Source of the DNA: Thauera sp.
GTDB taxonomy: Bacteria; Pseudomonadota; Gammaproteobacteria; Burkholderiales; Rhodocyclaceae
Direction of reading: 5' to 3'
DNA length: 64,000 nucleotides
NCBI GenBank assembly: GCA_024235615.1
Contig: JACKMB010000003.1
Coordinates: 124,001-188,000 of the forward strand
Under the pieces are notes generated by a model, which did no database searches, had not been told where the DNA came from, and was given only the letters and a program-made list of their open reading frames with translations. This document shows, in pieces, positions 56,933-64,000 of this stretch. Within the stretch, counting starts at the first letter, position 1. Each line of letters starts with the position of its first letter. Position numbers and translations under genes: made by a program.

Positions 56933-58897
56933 TCAGAAGATCAGGCGCAGGCCGTGGTTGAGCAGGCCGCCGATCAGGAAGGCGGTGGGGATGATCATCG
57001 CCAGCATCAGTGCGGCGACCTTCATGCCCTGCTCCTTGATGATCATCATCAGGCTGGCGATGCAGGGCACGAAGAGCGTGATCGTGACCATGCCGACCAC
57101 GGCCTGGATCATCGACAGCTCGCTCTGCAGCGCGAACAGGCCGCTGGCGCCGAAGTCGCGGCGCAGGAAGCCCATCACGAAGGCGGCGCTCGCCTCCGGC
57201 GGCAGGCCGAGCCAGCCCACCACCAGCGGCTCGCCCGCCTCGATGATCCACGGCAAGGCGCCGCTGCGGTCGAGGCCGAACATGATCAGGGTGCCGATCA
57301 GGAACAGCGGGATGACCTCGATCAGGTACCACTTCAGCCGCCCGCCGGTCTTCTTGAGCACGTTGCCCAGTACAGGCATGCGCATCGGCGGCAACTCGGT
57401 GACGAGCGGCACGCGCCGGCCGGGCACGACCTTGCTCGCCAGCCAGCCGGTGAACAGCAGCACGCCGACGATCGCCAGCACCCAGATCACCGTAGCACCG
57501 AACGAGATGCCGCCGAGCAGGCCGAGCACCACGCCGAGCTGCGCCGAGCACGGAATCGCCAGCGCCATCAGGTAGATCGTGATCAGGCGCTCGCGCGGGG
57601 TGTGCAGGATGCGGGTGGTGAGCGTGGCCATGGTCACGCAGCCCAGCCCGAGCACCATCGGCAGCACCGCGCGGCCGTTGAGGCCGATGGCGGCGAACAT
57701 GCGGTTGGCGATCACCGACAGGCGGGAGAAGTAGCCGGAGTCTTCCAGCACGCCGAAGGCGAGGAAGAAGGTGGTGACGATGGGCAGGATCAGCGCCAGC
57801 GCGTAGGTCATGCCCATGGTCCACAGGCCGTATTCGCCGACGATGAGGTCGGCCAGCCAGGGCGTGGAGACGTGGCGGGTGACGAAGTCGGTGACCGCCG
57901 GGTTGAGCACCTCGCCGAAGAAGTCTTCTTCGAGCAGCCCGACCAGGGTGCTGGCGCCGAAGTCGCCCACGAAGAGATACACCAGATAGAGCACGCCGAG
58001 CAGCATCGGCCAGCCCCACAGCCGGTGCACCGCGACGCGGCCGAGCAGCATCGACAGCGTACGGTCCTTGCCGGCGGCCTGGCGGGTGACGGTGCGCGCG
58101 AGCGCCTCGGCCGCGCCGCCGCGCTCGCGCGCGAGGCGGGCCGGCAGCGAGTCGCGGCCGATGGTGGCGGTGAGCTCGGCGAGCACGCTGCGCACGGGGC
58201 CGCTGCCGGGCTGCGTGGCGAGCCAGGCGTCGACCTCCGGGTCGCGTCCGATGGCGAGCACCGCCAGGCCGCGCGCAGCCAGCCGCGGGTGCGGGCAATG
58301 GGTGGAGATCAGCTCTTCCACACGGGCGATGTCGCGCTCGAGCACCGCGTCGTAGCGCAGCAGCGGCGCCGGTACGGCCGCCCTGCCGATCGCTTCGGTC
58401 AGCGCCGCGACGCCCTCGCCGCCGGTCGCCACCGTCGCCACCACCGGCACGCCGAGCGCTTCCGCGAGGGCCTCGGCATCCACCGTGACCCCGCGCGCCT
58501 TGGCCTCGTCGGTCATGTTGAGCGCCATCACCATGGGCACGCCGAGTTCGGCCAGCAGCGCGGTGAGGTTGAGTGTGCGGCGCAGGTTCTTGGCGTCGCC
58601 GACCTGGATCAGCGTGCGCATGTCCTCATGGAGCAGCGCGCGCATGGTGGCGCGCTCGTCGTCGCTGCGCGAGGGCAGGGCGAGCACGCCCGGGGTGTCG
58701 AGCAGCGAGGCCTCGCGGTCGAAGCGCGGCGTCGCACGCGAGACCTCGACCGTGGTTCCGGGGTAGTTGGACACCGTGACGTAGGTGCCGGTGAGGCGGT
58801 GGAACAGCACCGACTTGCCGACGTTGGGGTGGCCGACGAGGGCCAGGGTGCGCAGCACGGCGGCGGTGGCGGGGGCGGGCGAAGTGGCGCAGTCCAT
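56933..58897 (-). CDS. feoB: FeoB ferrous iron transporter
   Basis: The protein has 654 residues, shorter than the E. coli protein. The N-terminal G domain has G1 GHPNVGKS (22-29), G3 DTPG (67-70) and G4 NMTD. Then come the helical spacer and the membrane core with two Gate motifs (MVLGLGCVTMATLTTRIL, FVMGFLRRDFGASGLFAL). It imports Fe2+ across the inner membrane. An Fnr-like box lies 64-77 bp upstream, consistent with induction at low oxygen. It opens the iron island of this window. Confidence 0.93.
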   Translation of the reverse strand: MDCATSPAPATAAVLRTLALVGHPNVGKSVLFHRLTGTYVTVSNYPGTTVEVSRATPRFDREASLLDTPGVLALPSRSDDERATMRALLHEDMRTLIQVGDAKNLRRTLNLTALLAELGVPMVMALNMTDEAKARGVTVDAEALAEALGVPVVATVATGGEGVAALTEAIGRAAVPAPLLRYDAVLERDIARVEELISTHCPHPRLAARGLAVLAIGRDPEVDAWLATQPGSGPVRSVLAELTATIGRDSLPARLARERGGAAEALARTVTRQAAGKDRTLSMLLGRVAVHRLWGWPMLLGVLYLVYLFVGDFGASTLVGLLEEDFFGEVLNPAVTDFVTRHVSTPWLADLIVGEYGLWTMGMTYALALILPIVTTFFLAFGVLEDSGYFSRLSVIANRMFAAIGLNGRAVLPMVLGLGCVTMATLTTRILHTPRERLITIYLMALAIPCSAQLGVVLGLLGGISFGATVIWVLAIVGVLLFTGWLASKVVPGRRVPLVTELPPMRMPVLGNVLKKTGGRLKWYLIEVIPLFLIGTLIMFGLDRSGALPWIIEAGEPLVVGWLGLPPEASAAFVMGFLRRDFGASGLFALQSELSMIQAVVGMVTITLFVPCIASLMMIIKEQGMKVAALMLAMIIPTAFLIGGLLNHGLRLIF

Positions 58898-58974: not shown

Positions 58975-59041
58975 ATGTCCTGCGAAGGGCGCGCATTTCA
59001 TGGCCTCGGTGCGCTTGACAGGCGCCGGGATTTTAACGAAA

Positions 59042-59058
59042 TTGCGAATCATTCGCAA
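59042..59058. promoter_or_regulatory. Fur/Zur-like palindrome upstream of the S4 paralogue
   Basis: TTGCGAATCATTCGCAA is a perfect 7-3-7 inverted repeat resembling Fur-family operators (GATAATCATTATC-like, with GCGAATCATTCGC). It lies near the probable -10 region of a promoter whose -35 TTGACA is at 59015-59020, 80 bp before the start codon of the S4-like gene. This position suits repression by Fur or Zur. The assignment to either metal cannot be made by eye. Confidence 0.55.
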
Positions 59059-59137
59059 AACGAAGAGGACTTGCTCGTGCTTTCTGCTCGCTCGAGCGGG
59101 CAGGGCCTCTTCACCGGACCGACTGAAGGAGAACGAC

Positions 59138-59749
59138 TTGTCCCGTTACACCGGCCCCCGCCTGAAAGTGATGCGCGCCCTCGGCACCGAGTTGCCGGGC
59201 CTCTCGCGCAAGCCGCTGGGCGAGCGCAACTATCCGCCCGGGCAGCACGGCCAGCGCCCGAAGCGCAAGTCCGGCTTCGGCGTGCAGCTGATCGAGAAGC
59301 AGAAGCTGCGCTTCAACTACGGTCTCGGCGAGAAGCAGATCCAGCGCCTGTTCCGCGAGGCCAAGCGCGACCGCGGACCGACCGGCGACAAGTTGCTGGA
59401 GCTGCTCGAACGCCGCCTCGACAACTTCGTGTTCCGCGCCGGCTTTGCGCCGACTGCGGTGGCGGCGCGCCAGCTCGTGCGCCACAAGCACGTGCTGCTC
59501 AACGGGCGGGCGGTGAACATCCCCTCCATCCGCATCCGCCCGGGCGATCGCATCCAGGTCACCGAGCGCGCGCGCAGCATCCCGGTGGTGGTGGAGTCGC
59601 TCGCCGAGCCGGCGCTTGCCCGCCCCGAATGGCTTGTCTTCGACGAGGCGGCTCTGGCGGCGACGGTTACGCGGACTCCTGCGCCCGACGAGGTCCCGTT
59701 CCCGGTCGACGTCCAGCAGGTCGTCGAGTACTACGCGGTGCGGTTGTGA
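59138..59749 (+). CDS. Ribosomal protein S4 paralogue (cysteine-free, cyanobacterial/plastid-like)
   Basis: The protein has 203 residues. Start TTG 59138 is supported by GAAGGAGAA seven bases upstream and begins the S4 consensus SRYTGPRLKVMRALGTELPG, then YPPGQHGQRPKRKSGFGVQL and EKQKLRFNYGL. This is the pattern of cyanobacterial and plastid S4, not the usual betaproteobacterial one. The S4 RNA-binding domain is LDNFVFRAGFAPTAVAARQL... and VNIPSIRIRPGDRIQV. It has no zinc-finger cysteines. It stands alone, outside a ribosomal operon, behind a Fur/Zur-like box. It is probably an alternative or auxiliary S4 acquired by transfer; its assembly into ribosomes is not shown. Confidence 0.85.
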   Translation: MSRYTGPRLKVMRALGTELPGLSRKPLGERNYPPGQHGQRPKRKSGFGVQLIEKQKLRFNYGLGEKQIQRLFREAKRDRGPTGDKLLELLERRLDNFVFRAGFAPTAVAARQLVRHKHVLLNGRAVNIPSIRIRPGDRIQVTERARSIPVVVESLAEPALARPEWLVFDEAALAATVTRTPAPDEVPFPVDVQQVVEYYAVRL

Positions 59750-60091: not shown

Positions 60092-60154
60092 ATGAGCAAG
60101 AAATGCTGCAAGAAGGACAAGCCCTGCAAGGGATGTCCGCGGCGCGCGAAGTAG
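60092..60154 (+). CDS. 20-residue Lys/Cys-rich microprotein
   Basis: The open frame starts with ATG 60092 after a strong GAGGAGAAG site and ends at TAG 60152-60154. It encodes a 20-residue peptide with four cysteines (C5, C6, C12, C15) and nine basic residues, starting MSKKCC and ending with the CKGCPRRAK motif. The C-x2-C and C-C arrangement suggests metal binding, for example iron or copper. It lies 49 bp after the small coupled gene and just upstream of Fnr/Fur-like sites. Translation is inferred from the ribosome site and the composition, and it is too short for normal gene prediction. Confidence 0.6.
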   Translation: MSKKCCKKDKPCKGCPRRAK

Positions 60155-60173: not shown

Positions 60174-60203
60174 TTGACGATTATCAAACGAGAACGATTG
60201 TCG
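60174..60203. promoter_or_regulatory. Overlapping Fnr-like and Fur-like sites
   Basis: TTGACGATTATCAA (60174-60187) matches TTGAT-N4-ATCAA at 9 of 10 conserved positions. It is immediately followed by CGAGAACGATTGTCG (60189-60203), a 7-1-7 palindrome resembling a Fur box with 5 of 7 arm pairs. The pair precedes the periplasmic protein gene by about 95 bp and could control this gene and those downstream. Combined oxygen and iron control is inferred. Confidence 0.5.
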
Positions 60204-60297
60204 TTGTTGCTAACATTTGCAAACTGCACCACAGAAGCCCGATGACGGAAATCATCCATTGCACCAGGGCTGCTGCCGGACACAAGGAGAGCCCCCA

Positions 60298-60675
60298 ATG
60301 AAGCGTCTGATCCTCGCCGCCACGCTGGCCCTCGCCCCGCTTGCCTCGCCCGCGTGGGCCTCGGGTGCGGGCGAGCGCAGCGCCCACTTCGAGGGCAAGC
60401 CGTCCGCAACCCTGGCGCAGGCGGTGGCCAACTTCAGCGAGTACAACCTCAAGCTGAACGCCATTCTCGATGGCAAGGTCACCGACGCCGACATGGCCGA
60501 GGTGCACCAACTCACCTACACGCTCGAGAACGCGCTCAAGAAGATCAACGAGGAGATGAGCGCGCTCGCCGGCACGCTCGAAGAGGTGCACCTCGCTTCA
60601 GAGAAGCTGGATCGTGACGCGGTGCTCAAGCATGGCCGCGCCTACCTTTCGGTCTCCGGCCAGGTCGTCAGGTAA
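60298..60675 (+). CDS. Small periplasmic helical protein (DUF6746-like)
   Basis: The protein has 125 residues with signal peptide MKRLILAATLALAPLASPAWA. The mature part is mostly helical, with HFEGKPSATLAQAVANFSEYNLKLNAIL, and a predicted coiled region HQLTYTLENALKKINEEMSALAGTLEEVHLAS. A strong AAGGAGA precedes ATG 60298. It resembles a family of small periplasmic proteins that I know as DUF6746 from memory, which is not verified. Its place behind Fnr/Fur-like sites suggests iron- or oxygen-responsive expression. The function is unknown. Confidence 0.7.
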   Translation: MKRLILAATLALAPLASPAWASGAGERSAHFEGKPSATLAQAVANFSEYNLKLNAILDGKVTDADMAEVHQLTYTLENALKKINEEMSALAGTLEEVHLASEKLDRDAVLKHGRAYLSVSGQVVR

Positions 60676-60858: not shown

Positions 60859-61542
60859 ATGTCTCATCGCAAGTCCGGGCTGCGCCCGATCGTGCTGGCT
60901 TCGCTGTTCGCCTTCTGCTCCGCCCCGGCTTTCGCCGAGCGGCCGATGGCGGTCGATGATGCCGGCACGCTCGAGCGCGGCGGTGCCAAGCTCGAGTTCG
61001 GCTGGAGCCGCGACGATGCCGTGCGCGGTTACGAGGGCGCGGCCGGTTTTGGTCCGATCGACGATGTCGAGGTGGAGGTGGGCTTCGGGCGCGCGAAGGA
61101 TCGCGACGCCGACCCCGACGCGAAGATCCGCGCCGTCGGTGCGGCGGTCAAATGGGTGCCGCTGCAGTCCGAGACCGGGCTGTCCGCCGGGCTGAAGTAC
61201 GAATATGGCCGCGAGCGCGTCAGCGGCGAGGGTTCTTCGCGTGTCGACGCGCTCGCCGGCCTGGCAACGTGGGCATTCGAGCAGGGGCCGCGGGTGCATG
61301 TGAACCTCGGCCGCGAGTGGGCACGCGACGACGAAGACCTGAACTTCTGGGGTGTCGGCCTCGACGTGCCGCTCACCGAGCGACTCGACTTCGTGGTCGA
61401 GACCTTCGGTGCGGAACATGCCGGCCCGGATCGCCAGGTCGGCCTGCGCTACACGATCGCCGACGGTGTGAAGATCTCCGGTGCGGTCGGCCGCGGCAAC
61501 GATCGCAACATCGCCAACGTCGGGGTGGCCTGGGAGTTCTGA
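60859..61542 (+). CDS. Outer-membrane beta-barrel protein
   Basis: The protein has 227 residues with signal peptide MSHRKSGLRPIVLASLFAFCSAPAFA. The mature part alternates hydrophobic and polar residues in strand-like segments (AKLEFGWSRDD, DVEVEVGFGRAKD, GLSAGLKYEYGRERV, GVGLDVPLTERLDFVVETFG) and ends in F (VGVAWEF), the usual signal for Bam-mediated insertion. It is probably a small porin-like barrel. AAAGGAA precedes ATG 60859. It lies directly upstream of the six-gene ferrosome-like run (32-bp gap) and may be transcribed with it. Confidence 0.75.
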   Translation: MSHRKSGLRPIVLASLFAFCSAPAFAERPMAVDDAGTLERGGAKLEFGWSRDDAVRGYEGAAGFGPIDDVEVEVGFGRAKDRDADPDAKIRAVGAAVKWVPLQSETGLSAGLKYEYGRERVSGEGSSRVDALAGLATWAFEQGPRVHVNLGREWARDDEDLNFWGVGLDVPLTERLDFVVETFGAEHAGPDRQVGLRYTIADGVKISGAVGRGNDRNIANVGVAWEF

Positions 61543-61574: not shown

Positions 61575-61916
61575 ATGGTTTCGTTCAAGGAGTTGCGCGG
61601 CTTCCTGCGCGACGTGCGCATCGCCCACCACATCCGCGGGCGGATCCGGCTCAAGCTCGACGGTCGAGGCGGCGCGATCGACTTGCCCAAGGTCGAGGCA
61701 GGCGCCTTTCAATCCCTGCTCGACCGCACGCCGGGCGTGCGCTCGGTGCAGGTGAACCTGCTCGCGCGCTCGTGCACCGTCCATTACGACCCCGAGGTGA
61801 TCCCCGAGCACGCGTGGGGGGATTTTCTCGCTGGTGCAGCCTCCGAGGCTGCGGCCGTCCTCGAGCGCATCCTGCACGACAGCTACCGGGAGATCGGCAA
61901 TGCAGAACTACGATGA
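61575..61916 (+). CDS. HMA_2-like domain protein (first gene of the ferrosome-like operon)
   Basis: The protein has 113 residues with a heavy-metal-associated ferredoxin-like fold: strand 1 contains AHHIRGRIRLKLD, and the second half VRSVQVNLLARSCTVHYDPEVI. The CxxC of classical HMA domains is missing; the loop is H19-I-R-G-R-I-R25, as in the HMA_2 group. GAGGGGAAAG precedes ATG 61575. It overlaps the next gene by 17 bp. The same R-G-R-x-R signature recurs at the start of the P-type ATPase that ends this run. Confidence 0.8.
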   Translation: MVSFKELRGFLRDVRIAHHIRGRIRLKLDGRGGAIDLPKVEAGAFQSLLDRTPGVRSVQVNLLARSCTVHYDPEVIPEHAWGDFLAGAASEAAAVLERILHDSYREIGNAELR

Positions 61917-62595
61917 GTTCATCCTGCGCGCGCAACGCATCGACCCGCGCGCGCCTTATCCGGTGGTGCACCAGGCGGTGCGGATCGCGCTGTACGACGA
62001 GTACGCCGCGCGCAGCTTCTATGCGCGCGTGGCCGAAGCCTTCGGCGCACGTCCTCCCTTCGCCAACATCGTCCGTTCCGAGGAACAACACATCGCGGTC
62101 TTGCTCGGGCTGTGCGAGCGCTTCGGCATCCCGCGCCCGCTCGATCCCTTCCCGCAGGAAACCACCGTCGCACCGACCTGGCTAGCCAATTGCCAGCGTG
62201 CGGTCAATGGCGAAATCGCCAACGTCCGCTTGTACGCGTACCTGCTGACCCAGGTGGCGGAGCCGGAAATCCGTCAGGTGTTCCAGCGCCTGCAGGCGGC
62301 CTCGCTGCAGAACCACCTGCCCGCATTCCGTCAGGCCGCCGCCGCTGCGCAGGCGCAGGAGAACTACCACGCTGCCCACGGCATCCCGCCGCAGCAGGCC
62401 TACGTGAGGCATGGGCCGCTGTCCGACTTTCTCGAGACGGCCTTCTCGCAACTCGGGCCCTACGCCGGGCCGCTCGGCCTCTTCAGTCCGCTTCTGCGCC
62501 GTGCTCACCCCGCCATGCTGGCCGGCATGGTCACAGGGGGCGCAGGAGTCTATCTGTTGAAAGACAGGATCGGCCGTCATCGCAAGGAGAACTGA
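61900..62595 (+). CDS. Ferritin-like (diiron four-helix) protein with C-terminal hydrophobic segment
   Basis: The protein has 231 residues. The N-terminal 150 residues form a ferritin-like helical bundle with acidic/His iron-ligand pattern: ALYDEYAARSFYARV, IVRSEEQHIAVLLGL and NGEIANVRLYAYLL, a DUF2202-like arrangement. The C-terminal part has a Gly-rich hydrophobic stretch (HPAMLAGMVTGGAGVYLL) that may attach it to a membrane. It overlaps the previous gene by 17 bp; the next gene starts 1 bp after its stop. A role in handling or oxidising iron at the compartment membrane is inferred. Confidence 0.8.
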   Translation: MQNYDEFILRAQRIDPRAPYPVVHQAVRIALYDEYAARSFYARVAEAFGARPPFANIVRSEEQHIAVLLGLCERFGIPRPLDPFPQETTVAPTWLANCQRAVNGEIANVRLYAYLLTQVAEPEIRQVFQRLQAASLQNHLPAFRQAAAAAQAQENYHAAHGIPPQQAYVRHGPLSDFLETAFSQLGPYAGPLGLFSPLLRRAHPAMLAGMVTGGAGVYLLKDRIGRHRKEN

Positions 62596-62596
62596 C

Positions 62597-62923
62597 ATGT
62601 TCCCGCTCTTTCCCTTCGTCGCAGGGGTGCTGACCGGCGCCGTCGCCCTCCGCCTCATCAAGACCGACAAGACCAAGGCCGGGCTGGACAAGGCGCAGGA
62701 CAAGCTGCGTGACGCCACGGTGTCCAGCCTGGAGGCCATCGAACACGCTTCGGCCCGCGCCCGCAAGCGCCTGACCGCTGCCGAGGCGGACGAAGATGGC
62801 GAGTCGATGCCAGCGGAGGCCGCCGAGCCATCCGCACCCGCGGCGCGCAAGCGTGCGCCGCGTGCCGCCAAGGCCGCGCCCAAGGTGGACGCTGCCGCAG
62901 GCAAGGAGGACGCCGAGTCATGA
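62597..62923 (+). CDS. Single-pass membrane protein with charged Ala/Lys tail
   Basis: The protein has 108 residues. One hydrophobic helix at the N-terminus (FPLFPFVAGVLTGAVALRLI) is followed by a helical charged region (TKAGLDKAQDKLRDATVSSLEAIEHASARARKRL) and a low-complexity tail (PAARKRAPRAAKAAPKVDA). AAGGAGAA precedes ATG 62597. It resembles small DUF5132/YtxH-type anchors that neighbour HMA_2 and P-type ATPase genes. It probably organises or decorates an intracellular membrane; no enzymatic motif is present. Confidence 0.7.
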   Translation: MFPLFPFVAGVLTGAVALRLIKTDKTKAGLDKAQDKLRDATVSSLEAIEHASARARKRLTAAEADEDGESMPAEAAEPSAPAARKRAPRAAKAAPKVDAAAGKEDAES

Positions 62924-63204
62924 GAACCCCGATCCTGCCCCATCTGCCCTCCGCGCCGCTTGTCACGGTGAGCCGCGCCGCGGGCGGCGGCTTCGTCCAG
63001 GGTTTCGTCGCCGCAGGCTGCGTGTCCGCTTTCCAGGATCACCCCGCGCCGGCGTGCGCAGTCGATCTGAAGCGGGTGCTGCGCCACGCCCTGCAGGGTG
63101 GCGCCGCGCTGGTCGCGACCGCGGCCGGTGCAGCCGGCGTGCTGCTGATCGAACGACTGCTGCGCGATTCCGCGAAAGCCGTACAGGAGAGGAAGGATGT
63201 CTAA
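62920..63204 (+). CDS. Small membrane protein with one hydrophobic helix pair
   Basis: The protein has 94 residues. Hydrophobic parts are GGGFVQGFVAAGCVSAF and LRHALQGGAALVATAAGAAGVLLIERLL. Glycine-rich small membrane proteins of this kind are frequent in organelle-forming operons. It overlaps the previous stop by ATGA and the next gene by 8 bp. No family was recognised with certainty. Confidence 0.7.
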   Translation: MRTPILPHLPSAPLVTVSRAAGGGFVQGFVAAGCVSAFQDHPAPACAVDLKRVLRHALQGGAALVATAAGAAGVLLIERLLRDSAKAVQERKDV

Positions 63205-63706
63205 GAAGCACAAGAAAGCCCATCGCCGTGGCGACCGCGGGATGCAGGGCGGGCAGGGCGCCGGCGGGCCGATGTACCAGGGCCAGTACGGGCAATATGG
63301 ACAATACGGCATGGGCGGCATGGGCGCGGACCCGGCTGCCGGCCCGTACGCGGCGGAGACTGCGTTCGCTCAGGGAGCCGGCGCGGGCTACGGTCCGGGC
63401 GCCGGGGCCTGGCCGGGCGGCGTTCAGGCCGGTCTTCAGGCCGGCCTCGGCGCGGCCGGCCTCGATGGTGGCCTGTTGCAGGGCATGCCGGCCTTCCTGC
63501 GCACGCGCAACAGCGAGCAGTTCCTGCTCGGCGCCCTGATCGGCGCTGCCGCGGCCTGGGTGCTGAGCGACGAGGAACTGCGCGGCAAGATCGTCAAGTC
63601 GGCGATGAAGCTTTATGCCGGCGTCGCCGGCGGCTTCGAGGAGATGAAGGAGCAGATGGCCGACATCCGCGCCGAGGTCGAAGCGGAGCAGCACGGAGAC
63701 GCATGA
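63197..63706 (+). CDS. Gly/Tyr/Gln-rich membrane-associated protein (YtxH-like C-terminus)
   Basis: The protein has 169 residues. A basic start (MSKKHKKAHRRGDRG) is followed by a low-complexity region with QYGQYGQYG repeats and Gly/Ala-rich sequence (about 15-90), a hydrophobic helix near 109-125 (FLLGALIGAAAAWVLSD), and a charged helical tail (GKIVKSAMKLYAGVAGGFEEMKEQMADIRAEVEAEQ). The low-complexity part could phase-separate or bind a mineral surface. Start and end overlap both neighbours. The function is unknown. Confidence 0.75.
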   Translation: MSKKHKKAHRRGDRGMQGGQGAGGPMYQGQYGQYGQYGMGGMGADPAAGPYAAETAFAQGAGAGYGPGAGAWPGGVQAGLQAGLGAAGLDGGLLQGMPAFLRTRNSEQFLLGALIGAAAAWVLSDEELRGKIVKSAMKLYAGVAGGFEEMKEQMADIRAEVEAEQHGDA

Positions 63707-64000
63707 TGAGCGGCGGCTGGGTGTCCGCGCTGGAGCCGGTTCATGCGACGCGTGGTCGCGTGCGCTGGCGCTACGCCTGCCGCCCGGGGGCGCCGGCCGA
63801 CCCACATGCGCTGGAGCGCGCGGTGGCGACGGTGGCCGGTGTGCGCAAGGCGCGGACCAATGCTGCCGCACGCGCGCTGGTGGTCGAGTTCGACGCCGCA
63901 CAAACCTCCGCGGAGCGCATCGCCCTCGACATCCTGCGCATGGTGCCCGCGCAAGCCCGCAAGGCGGGGGCACGCAACGGCGAGCCCAGCGTCGCGCCGG
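63703..64000 (+). CDS. Probable heavy-metal P-type ATPase, N-terminal HMA_2-like domain only (cut by window edge)
   Basis: About 99 residues are visible. Two in-frame ATG codons (63703 and 63706) follow GGAG; the first overlaps the previous stop. The visible part is an HMA-like domain without CxxC: H14-ATRGRVRWR (residues 14-23), then LERAVATVAGVRKARTNAAARALVVEFDAA. This is the N-terminal pattern of P1B ATPases found with HMA_2 partners, including ferrosome FezB-like proteins. The transmembrane and catalytic parts lie beyond the window, so ATPase identity is inferred from context and domain type. Confidence 0.6.
   Translation, partial: MMSGGWVSALEPVHATRGRVRWRYACRPGAPADPHALERAVATVAGVRKARTNAAARALVVEFDAAQTSAERIALDILRMVPAQARKAGARNGEPSVAP

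Follow-up and report, generated by a model that had tools for sequence, protein, structure and literature searches.

Ferrosomes are membrane-bounded iron stores specified by fez genes. FezB is a P1B-6 ATPase with DYSCA as the motif of its fourth transmembrane segment (TM4), and the genes are ordered fezABC in D. magneticus and fezAB in C. difficile. To our knowledge, the field has yet to settle how iron enters ferrosomes, is mineralised in them and is released again. In this study, these systems are compared with a cluster of six overlapping genes at the right end of a 64,000-nucleotide (nt) stretch of DNA, referred to as the window, which corresponds to C3:124001-188000 of a 4.0-Mb Thauera genome. 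By its gene content, motif and gene order, the cluster is best read as a fez-type cluster, in a variant that includes a ferritin-like part and a tail of feo genes.

The C. difficile system comprises the membrane protein FezA and the transporter FezB (PMC12574912), and the ferrosomes of R. palustris come from six fez genes (PMC12016538); one study links RPA2333-2338 to metal-ion transport and found them lowered together with iron genes in low light (PMC6879726). FezC is described as a heme-binding DUF4405-like protein; that of D. magneticus has DUF4405 homology, and that of Desulfurispirillum indicum, in which histidines are conserved, is a heme-b protein (PMC11334425). P1B-6 ATPases are listed with Fe(II) (PMC7558416) and are marked by HN in the sixth transmembrane segment (TM6) (PMC9374683). 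In PacL1-CtpC, a zinc-efflux platform of Mycobacterium, a small transmembrane protein is encoded with a P1B6-like ATPase that bears the TM6 HN and has CPC in TM4. Genes for DUF6110 proteins typically lie beside P1B6 transporters, and assembly of a platform has been suggested for them (PMC9374683).

The cluster is likely to be a ferrosome operon of the fez type to which a ferritin-like component has been added, and it probably shares a transcript with the ferrous-iron importer genes feoAABC. This reading is based on gene content, gene order, P1B-6 motifs, relatedness and co-occurrence, from which the membrane-bounded compartment itself is predicted.

The FezB-like ATPase and the gene order

The six frames lie on the plus strand, the first beginning at 61575, and the gaps between them in the list of open reading frames are -17, +1, -4, -8 and -4 bp, exactly the values given by an earlier sequence-only reading of the window. 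That reading took the last gene, which starts at 63703, for a probable P1B ATPase. In the 18 kb read across the right end of the window (L005; window coordinate = L005 coordinate + 55999), this gene 6 (63703-64000 in the window, ending at about 65841; L005:7704-9842) is complete and encodes a P1B-6-type, FezB-like ATPase of 712 amino acids (aa), with matches to E1-E2_ATPase in Pfam (1.1e-35) and to ATPase-IB in NCBIfam (3.3e-140). The DKTGT motif and the E1-E2_ATPase and hydrolase domains are intact, matches to HMA and HMA_2 at the N-terminus are below the cut-offs, and the protein is 97% identical to the ATPase of Thauera phenylacetica B4P (L052).

The P1B-6 features for which the sequence-only reading proposed to examine the extended sequence are present. 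Its TM4 reads DYSCALKLSTP at the place of CPC in copper and zinc pumps; D[YFH][SA]C is found in TM4 of all 73 fez-like rows of an ATPase tree, whereas the 17 other P1B rows have CPC (14), SPC (2) or neither (1). The HN motif of TM6 is likewise found in 73/73 fez-like rows and in none of the 17 others. A copper, zinc or cobalt subclass of P1B ATPase is ruled out for gene 6 by HN and D[YFH][SA]C and by the lack of CPC.

In this tree of 90 rows, which was made by a quick method with a midpoint root and a warning for some long branches, all 73 fez-like ATPases stand on one side of a single branch with a support of 100. Three groups are found on the fez-like side: the Thauera/Aeromonas/Azospirillum type; a group of Vibrio sp. 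THAF190c, Cereibacter (L119), genome G363 and several members of the Aeromonas order; and a group of Geobacter, Sutterellaceae and Clostridia, whose ATPases are 36-42% identical to gene 6. Loci L036-L041 were dropped as copies before the tree and before the counts of motifs, of CxxC and histidine positions and of gene-2 gains and losses; L036-L040 are true copies; L041 comes from a different Thauera (G001) whose cluster has gene 2 and is no copy, which leaves these sets one row short. The tree was made without L085 and L067, which are cut, L134 (G706, with a stop inside the ATPase) was unused, and the second ATPase of L066 serves as an outgroup row.

The gene order recurs with gene 2 in other Thauera, Azotobacter vinelandii, Rhodocyclus, Dechloromonas and Lautropia, and without gene 2 in Aeromonas, Azospirillum and Rubrivivax; because it is kept in other genera, the cluster is not due to chance. 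The profiles used for the comparisons of layout, presence and gene 2 were built from many of the loci to which they were then applied, and a first pass with the window's proteins alone gives the same gene order. Gene starts in the relatives were placed by a script, and some are off.

Small membrane proteins

Between gene 2 and the ATPase gene lie genes 3 (62597-62923; 108 aa), 4 (62920-63204; 94 aa) and 5 (63197-63706; 169 aa), which encode small membrane proteins with one, two and one hydrophobic stretches, respectively, in a simple scan that finds none in the products of genes 1 and 2. Searches of Pfam gave no match for genes 3 and 4 and matches below the cut-off to YtxH and DUF5132 for gene 5, the product of which has a Gly/Tyr-rich N-terminus followed by a FezA-like or YtxH-like membrane and helical part. 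A profile of gene 5 (18 rows) matches a FezA-like profile with a probability of 95.6 and an E value of 1.1e-8. The latter profile was made from six small proteins that precede the ATPase in Parasutterella, Anaerotignum, Gracilibacteraceae, Duodenibacillus, G055 and Geobacter, which are named FezA-like by their position ahead of FezB-like genes, no proven FezA being among them. Gene 3 is related to gene 5 (profile E 8.9e-8) and matches the FezA-like set weakly (probability 56).

Of 395 genomes drawn from the phylum of Geobacter, 46 match the ATPase at E 1e-100; some of these matches are partial, with 34-37% identity. Thirty loci of this sample, with short flanks and including the Geobacter that contributes to the FezA-like profile, were counted by eye: 24 had a FezA-like match at the ATPase, five more had a gene-5-type match and one had neither, and the order FezA-like, ATPase, FezC/HMA_2-type was found in 17. 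Two genomes of the sample carry a tandem pair of FezB-like ATPase genes (L159, L160).

To judge from these profiles, genes 3 and 5 (gene 3 via gene 5) are relatives of the FezA-like/DUF6110 kind of protein that accompanies such ATPases. The fez-type operon proposed by the sequence-only reading is thus supported from two sides, by the branch and motifs of the ATPase and by the FezA-like match of gene 5, with gene 3 joined through gene 5; a match of the small genes to an unrelated system, which would have spoken against that proposal, did not occur, and gene 4 matches nothing.

The same proteins bear on a different function, a metal-efflux platform of the plasma membrane like PacL-CtpC, in which small transmembrane proteins would cluster the P1B ATPase and Fe2+ would be expelled with no organelle involved. 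Four of the six FezA-like proteins match DUF6110 (best E 2.2e-7) and two match DUF1490, the family of PacL (best E 0.0013); the adjacency of DUF6110 genes to P1B6 transporters and the platform suggested for them, as reported in PMC9374683, agree with such a function, and expulsion and vesicle loading would need the same ATPase. However, the CPC of CtpC TM4 is absent from 73/73 fez-like rows, genes 3-5 give no match to DUF1490, and the operon continues into the importer genes feoAABC, while FezC-like and ferritin-like companions would fit storage better than efflux. An efflux platform is therefore considered unlikely. That FezA-like proteins are weakly linked with DUF6110 and PacL suggests a common way of gathering P1B ATPases in membranes.

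HMA_2-type and FezC-like proteins

Gene 1 (61575-61916) encodes a small HMA_2-type protein of 113 aa with the arginine motif IRGRIRLK and without CxxC; in Pfam its HMA_2 match is weak (26 bits; cut-off 30) and its HMA match also scores 26 bits (cut-off 24.8). By regular expression, a GRxR motif near the N-terminus is found in 60/62 members of the gene 1 family, 48/53 FezC-like proteins and 52/75 ATPases; among the ATPases, several misses are explained by trimmed ends or by variant motifs like RVRFR. CxxC within the first 100 residues is found in none of 62, none of 53 and one of 76, respectively.

A gene for a FezC-like protein is found on the minus strand (L005:13582-14007), 3.7 kb downstream of the cluster. 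Its product matches HMA_2 above the cut-off (35.3 bits) and DUF4405 with 19.8 bits (cut-off 26.7), and has His117 and His131. Among 23 FezC-like rows, selected for an intact C-terminus, HMA_2 is matched in 22 and DUF4405 in eight (E<=0.01), and G10, R11, R13, H117, H131 and R136 are invariant; in a wider set, each histidine column is kept in 42/51, the exceptions including L126, L133 and L119. The model of the FezC-like protein combines an HMA-type fold with a helical hairpin (mean predicted local distance difference test, pLDDT, 88; predicted template modelling score, pTM, 0.59), and the best matches of this model in Foldseek are HMA domains, none at E 0.001.

The ferritin-like protein

The product of gene 2 (61900-62595; 231 aa) is predicted to be a ferritin-like four-helix protein; it carries a C-terminal ExxH...HG motif and ends in a Gly/Ala-rich segment. 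Its Pfam matches to DUF2202 and rubrerythrin are both below the cut-offs, DUF2202 being matched at E<=0.1 by 12 of 18 gene-2 proteins, and a search of the Protein Data Bank (PDB) gave no sequence match at E 1. The model (mean pLDDT 80) has helices at 22-48, 54-75, 94-118 and 122-159, and in Foldseek it is most similar to MJ0754 (E 3.4e-4), followed by Rv2844, FtnA and Bfr at 4e-3 or weaker. The ferritin-like protein that the sequence-only reading placed in the operon is borne out at the level of the modelled fold.

The diiron ligands, assigned from the helices of the model, are kept in the 18 aligned gene-2 rows to different extents: E34 in 17, E61 in 12 (by eye), H64 in 12, E105 in 15 and H139 in 16. 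The window's protein retains five of the six expected ligands, and the complete site of ferritin and bacterioferritin (E, ExxH, E, ExxH) was not found in gene 2. Because the diiron site is incomplete, a role as a ferroxidase is doubtful, and a plain ferritin is ruled out. As for a cargo of encapsulin, the score against the EncB profile NF058679 is 12.5 bits with a cut-off of 90, and this identity was rejected, an encapsulin shell gene not having been searched for. Two ordinary ferritin-family proteins are encoded elsewhere in the genome. The invariant residues of gene 2 include E154, H157, H171, G172 and E179. According to the model, the fold of gene 2 is ferritin-like and its diiron site incomplete, and conservation is strictest in a C-terminal motif outside the expected site of the bundle.

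The last 36 residues of gene 2 score 29.7, 24.3 and 19.9 in profile comparisons with gene 3, gene 5 and the FezA-like set, the maxima after shuffling of columns (60 shuffles each) being 16.0 for gene 3 and 14.9 for gene 5. With other profiles the scores are 32.8 (gene 3) and 26.1 (gene 5), and none of seven further families of the locus, among them gene 4, scores above 14.0. In a comparison of single sequences, genes 3 and 5 score 18.9 and 16.9, no higher than other frames of the window, which score up to 18.9. Overall, a likeness between the C-terminus of gene 2 and the membrane segment found in genes 3 and 5 is judged suggestive.

Distribution of the cluster and of gene 2

Among 55 named loci, some of which are cut by contig ends, gene 2 is found in 19, gene 5 in 44 and a FezC-like gene in 38. 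In the tree, gene 2 is present in 23 of the 71 rows in which the upstream side was read, two rows having been set aside as cut, and its distribution requires at least six changes, four of them forced by starred branches, compared with a shuffled mean of 19.8; this would fit a history of few gains and several losses, or a similar one. Where it occurs, gene 2 sits between genes 1 and 3; in Oligella no gene 3 was detected, and gene 4 comes next. The row of six genes annotated on an Arcobacter plasmid (L118) resembles that of Thauera, with gene 2 annotated as DUF2202.

A survey of 300 genomes of the order, in which the best few candidates per genome were scored, found gene 2 at E 1e-6 in nine. Six of these matches are full-length, and all six genomes have an ATPase of at least 62% identity; the other three (G802, G996, G041) span residues 23-154 and have no ATPase match. 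An ATPase at E 1e-100 was found in 12 of the 300 genomes, namely the six with full-length gene 2 and six with 35-42% identity and no gene-2 match. Within the genus, some genomes of which are incomplete, a close ATPase is present in 10/29, and eight of the ten Thauera-genus clusters contain gene 2.

These counts argue against a system centred on ferritin, in which gene 2 would be the store and the ATPase would feed or drain a periplasmic or membrane-bound ferritin cage. Such a system would agree with the fold of gene 2 and with the close ATPase that accompanies its full-length form in 6/6 genomes, but the cluster lacks gene 2 in 48/71 tree rows, including two of the ten Thauera-genus clusters, the diiron ligands are incomplete, and the genome encodes its two ordinary ferritin-family proteins elsewhere. 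We regard it as quite improbable. The patchy presence of a close ATPase in the genus might also point to a decayed or silent remnant of a fez cluster; this is hardly credible for a locus in which all frames are open, the overlaps are retained and the ATPase motifs are intact, and whose gene order is conserved across families.

More distant genomes also carry such genes. A draw of 385 genomes from the class of a Rhodospirillum gave three with a match, the centre included, and 12 of 295 genomes matched in the order of Aeromonas, where MtrB-type proteins are encoded in two of the nine genomes with matches of about 40%; a Shewanella or Ferrimonas may be among the MtrB-bearing ones. An assignment of G363, one of the three matching genomes of the Rhodospirillum draw, to Rhodopseudomonas was not accepted: it has no PioB/MtrB match and no light-harvesting complex match (weak evidence, as none matched anywhere), and it is the sole member of its family. 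Fez-type clusters occur in the plasmid records of Azospirillum brasilense p3, Arcobacter sp. p133, Cereibacter azotoformans pORIO2, which is typed as conjugative, and Vibrio sp. THAF190c (L117-L120), and given these records horizontal spread is possible. Sinirhodobacter populi (L077, L099) has two separate copies of the cluster, neither with a ferritin-like gene.

Transcription unit and neighboring genes

Gene 6 overlaps a feoA gene (L005:9839-10090) by 4 nt; a second feoA (L005:10157-10384) overlaps feoB (L005:10381-12726) by 4 nt, and feoC (L005:12737-12973) follows. All four have the same orientation as gene 6, and the FeoA and FeoC matches are above the Pfam cut-offs. The proximity to feoAB noted in the sequence-only reading is correct, and the likely transcription unit, predicted from the arrangement, is gene1-gene2-gene3-gene4-gene5-fezB-feoA-feoA-feoB-feoC. 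A frame of 230 aa (L005:12867-13559, plus strand), with no Pfam match at E 0.05, overlaps feoC and extends past it.

On the upstream side, a gene for an outer-membrane beta-barrel-like protein (60859-61542, plus strand; Pfam matches below the cut-off) ends 32 bp before gene 1 and is possibly the first gene of the predicted transcript; in several other Thauera, too, the cluster is preceded by such a gene. Several genera have beta-barrel-like genes of this type close to either the cluster or feoB (L056, L089, L101; weak in L089), and the gene may belong to iron handling. Further upstream and outside the operon, a second feoB lies on the minus strand (56933-58897), and between it and the iron genes is a gene recognised by eye as resembling that of ribosomal protein S4 (59000-59749, plus strand), possibly a paralogue.

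The Fnr- and Fur-like sites named in the sequence-only reading exist, an Fnr-like site TTGACGATTATCAA at 60174-60187 (9/10, and 10/10 at the corresponding place in T. phenylacetica, L052) beside a Fur-like site at 60190-60208 (13/19), but they are placed about 1.4 kb upstream of gene 1 and precede another gene, that for a DUF6746 protein (60217-60675, plus strand; 1e-42), which lies just behind them and has a match near the cluster in several other Thauera. Within 2 kb upstream, an Fnr-like site of at least 9/10 is found in 8/26 loci and in 2/520 mononucleotide shuffles, and a Fur-like site of at least 14/19 in 3/26 loci and in 2/520 shuffles, near relatives being treated as separate loci; these counts are support, not proof, for a possible control of expression by iron and anoxia. 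Just upstream of the Fnr-like site, at about 60092-60154 on the plus strand, is the end of a tiny Cys-rich frame, MSKKCCKKDKPCKGCPRRAK, and a similar-looking Cys-rich tail ends a gene beside the FezC-like gene in L126 (3300-3713).

A proposed model of the iron store

Several observations weigh against a fez-type ferrosome operon with a ferritin-like component. The tree does not contain the experimentally proven Fez proteins of D. magneticus, R. palustris, S. putrefaciens and C. difficile, the FezC-like gene sits outside the operon with a DUF4405 match below the curated cut-off, and 19/29 Thauera-genus genomes, some of them incomplete, are without a close ATPase. The Fnr/Fur-like sites precede the DUF6746 gene instead of gene 1, and the upstream sites occur in only 8/26 (Fnr) and 3/26 (Fur) loci. 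In gene 2, the glutamate expected at 136 is missing from 18/18 rows (L, R or I) and H64 from 6/18, the C-terminus (186-203, 205-231) is modelled at pLDDT <50, and a hydropathy scan at 1.2 calls no membrane stretch there.

If the fez-type reading holds, an iron-limited, oxygen-poor cell would make the FezA-like membrane proteins (genes 3-5), which would gather the gene 6 ATPase into a vesicle membrane. As family membership and gene order suggest, FeoB would import Fe2+ into the cytoplasm and FezB would pump it into the vesicle lumen, and the FezC-like bis-His protein might handle the Fe2+/Fe3+ step across the vesicle membrane. The least certain step is that of the ferritin-like protein, which, held by its C-terminal segment resembling genes 3 and 5, may bind iron or oxidise it, either in the lumen or at the surface of the vesicle. 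As a tentative proposal, the locus might specify a hybrid store, a ferrosome membrane with its own ferritin-like protein on a FezA-type anchor, in which a protein template would bind or oxidise the iron that FezB pumps in; in that case the invariant ExxH...HG motif and the degenerate diiron site would represent a new, organelle-specialised iron site.

The variant may join two iron-storage systems that are usually regarded as separate, and its ferritin-like subunit and feoAABC tail would bring iron import, the loading of vesicles and the handling of the mineral together in a single likely transcript. The natural Thauera clusters with (8/10) and without (2/10) gene 2 make the role of gene 2 directly testable. 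Thauera and Azotobacter vinelandii, both with gene 2, and Rubrivivax gelatinosus, without it, are workable in the laboratory.

Comparison with known systems

Within the literature that could be consulted in part, searches on ferrosomes with ferritin-like or DUF2202 proteins returned nothing on a ferritin-like gene in fez clusters, and novelty of such a gene is not claimed; among the literature matches listed, ferrosomes are not mentioned for Thauera, Azospirillum, Azotobacter vinelandii or Rhodocyclus. In the accessible description of PacL1-CtpC, no FezC-like, HMA_2, ferritin-like or feo genes are reported with it, and the Thauera locus differs in turn, as gene 6 has DYSCA instead of CPC in TM4 and DUF1490 is not matched in genes 3-5.

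Gene 2 shares the four-helix bundle with DUF2202 and the ferritin-like superfamily (MJ0754, FtnA, Bfr), but it has a C-terminal extension of about 75 residues with the invariant ExxH...HG and lacks one diiron ligand in 18/18 rows.

The FezA-FezB-FezC layout is seen in Sutterellaceae and in genomes of the Geobacter-phylum sample. Compared with fezABC and fezAB, the Thauera cluster has three small proteins instead of one, and an extra HMA_2 protein and the ferritin-like protein in addition. The likeness to six-gene fez versions that the sequence-only reading drew holds for the number of genes but not for their identity: the six-gene form in Aeromonas and Azospirillum consists of FezC-like, HMA_2, three small proteins and the ATPase, whereas in Thauera the FezC-like gene is outside and the ferritin-like gene inside. 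With RPA2333-2338 of R. palustris, compared by description and not by sequence, the locus has in common a cluster of six genes, ferrosome-forming in R. palustris and probably of the fez type in Thauera, and it differs from that fez cluster in having a ferritin-like gene inside the operon, a FezC-like gene outside it and feoAABC after it.

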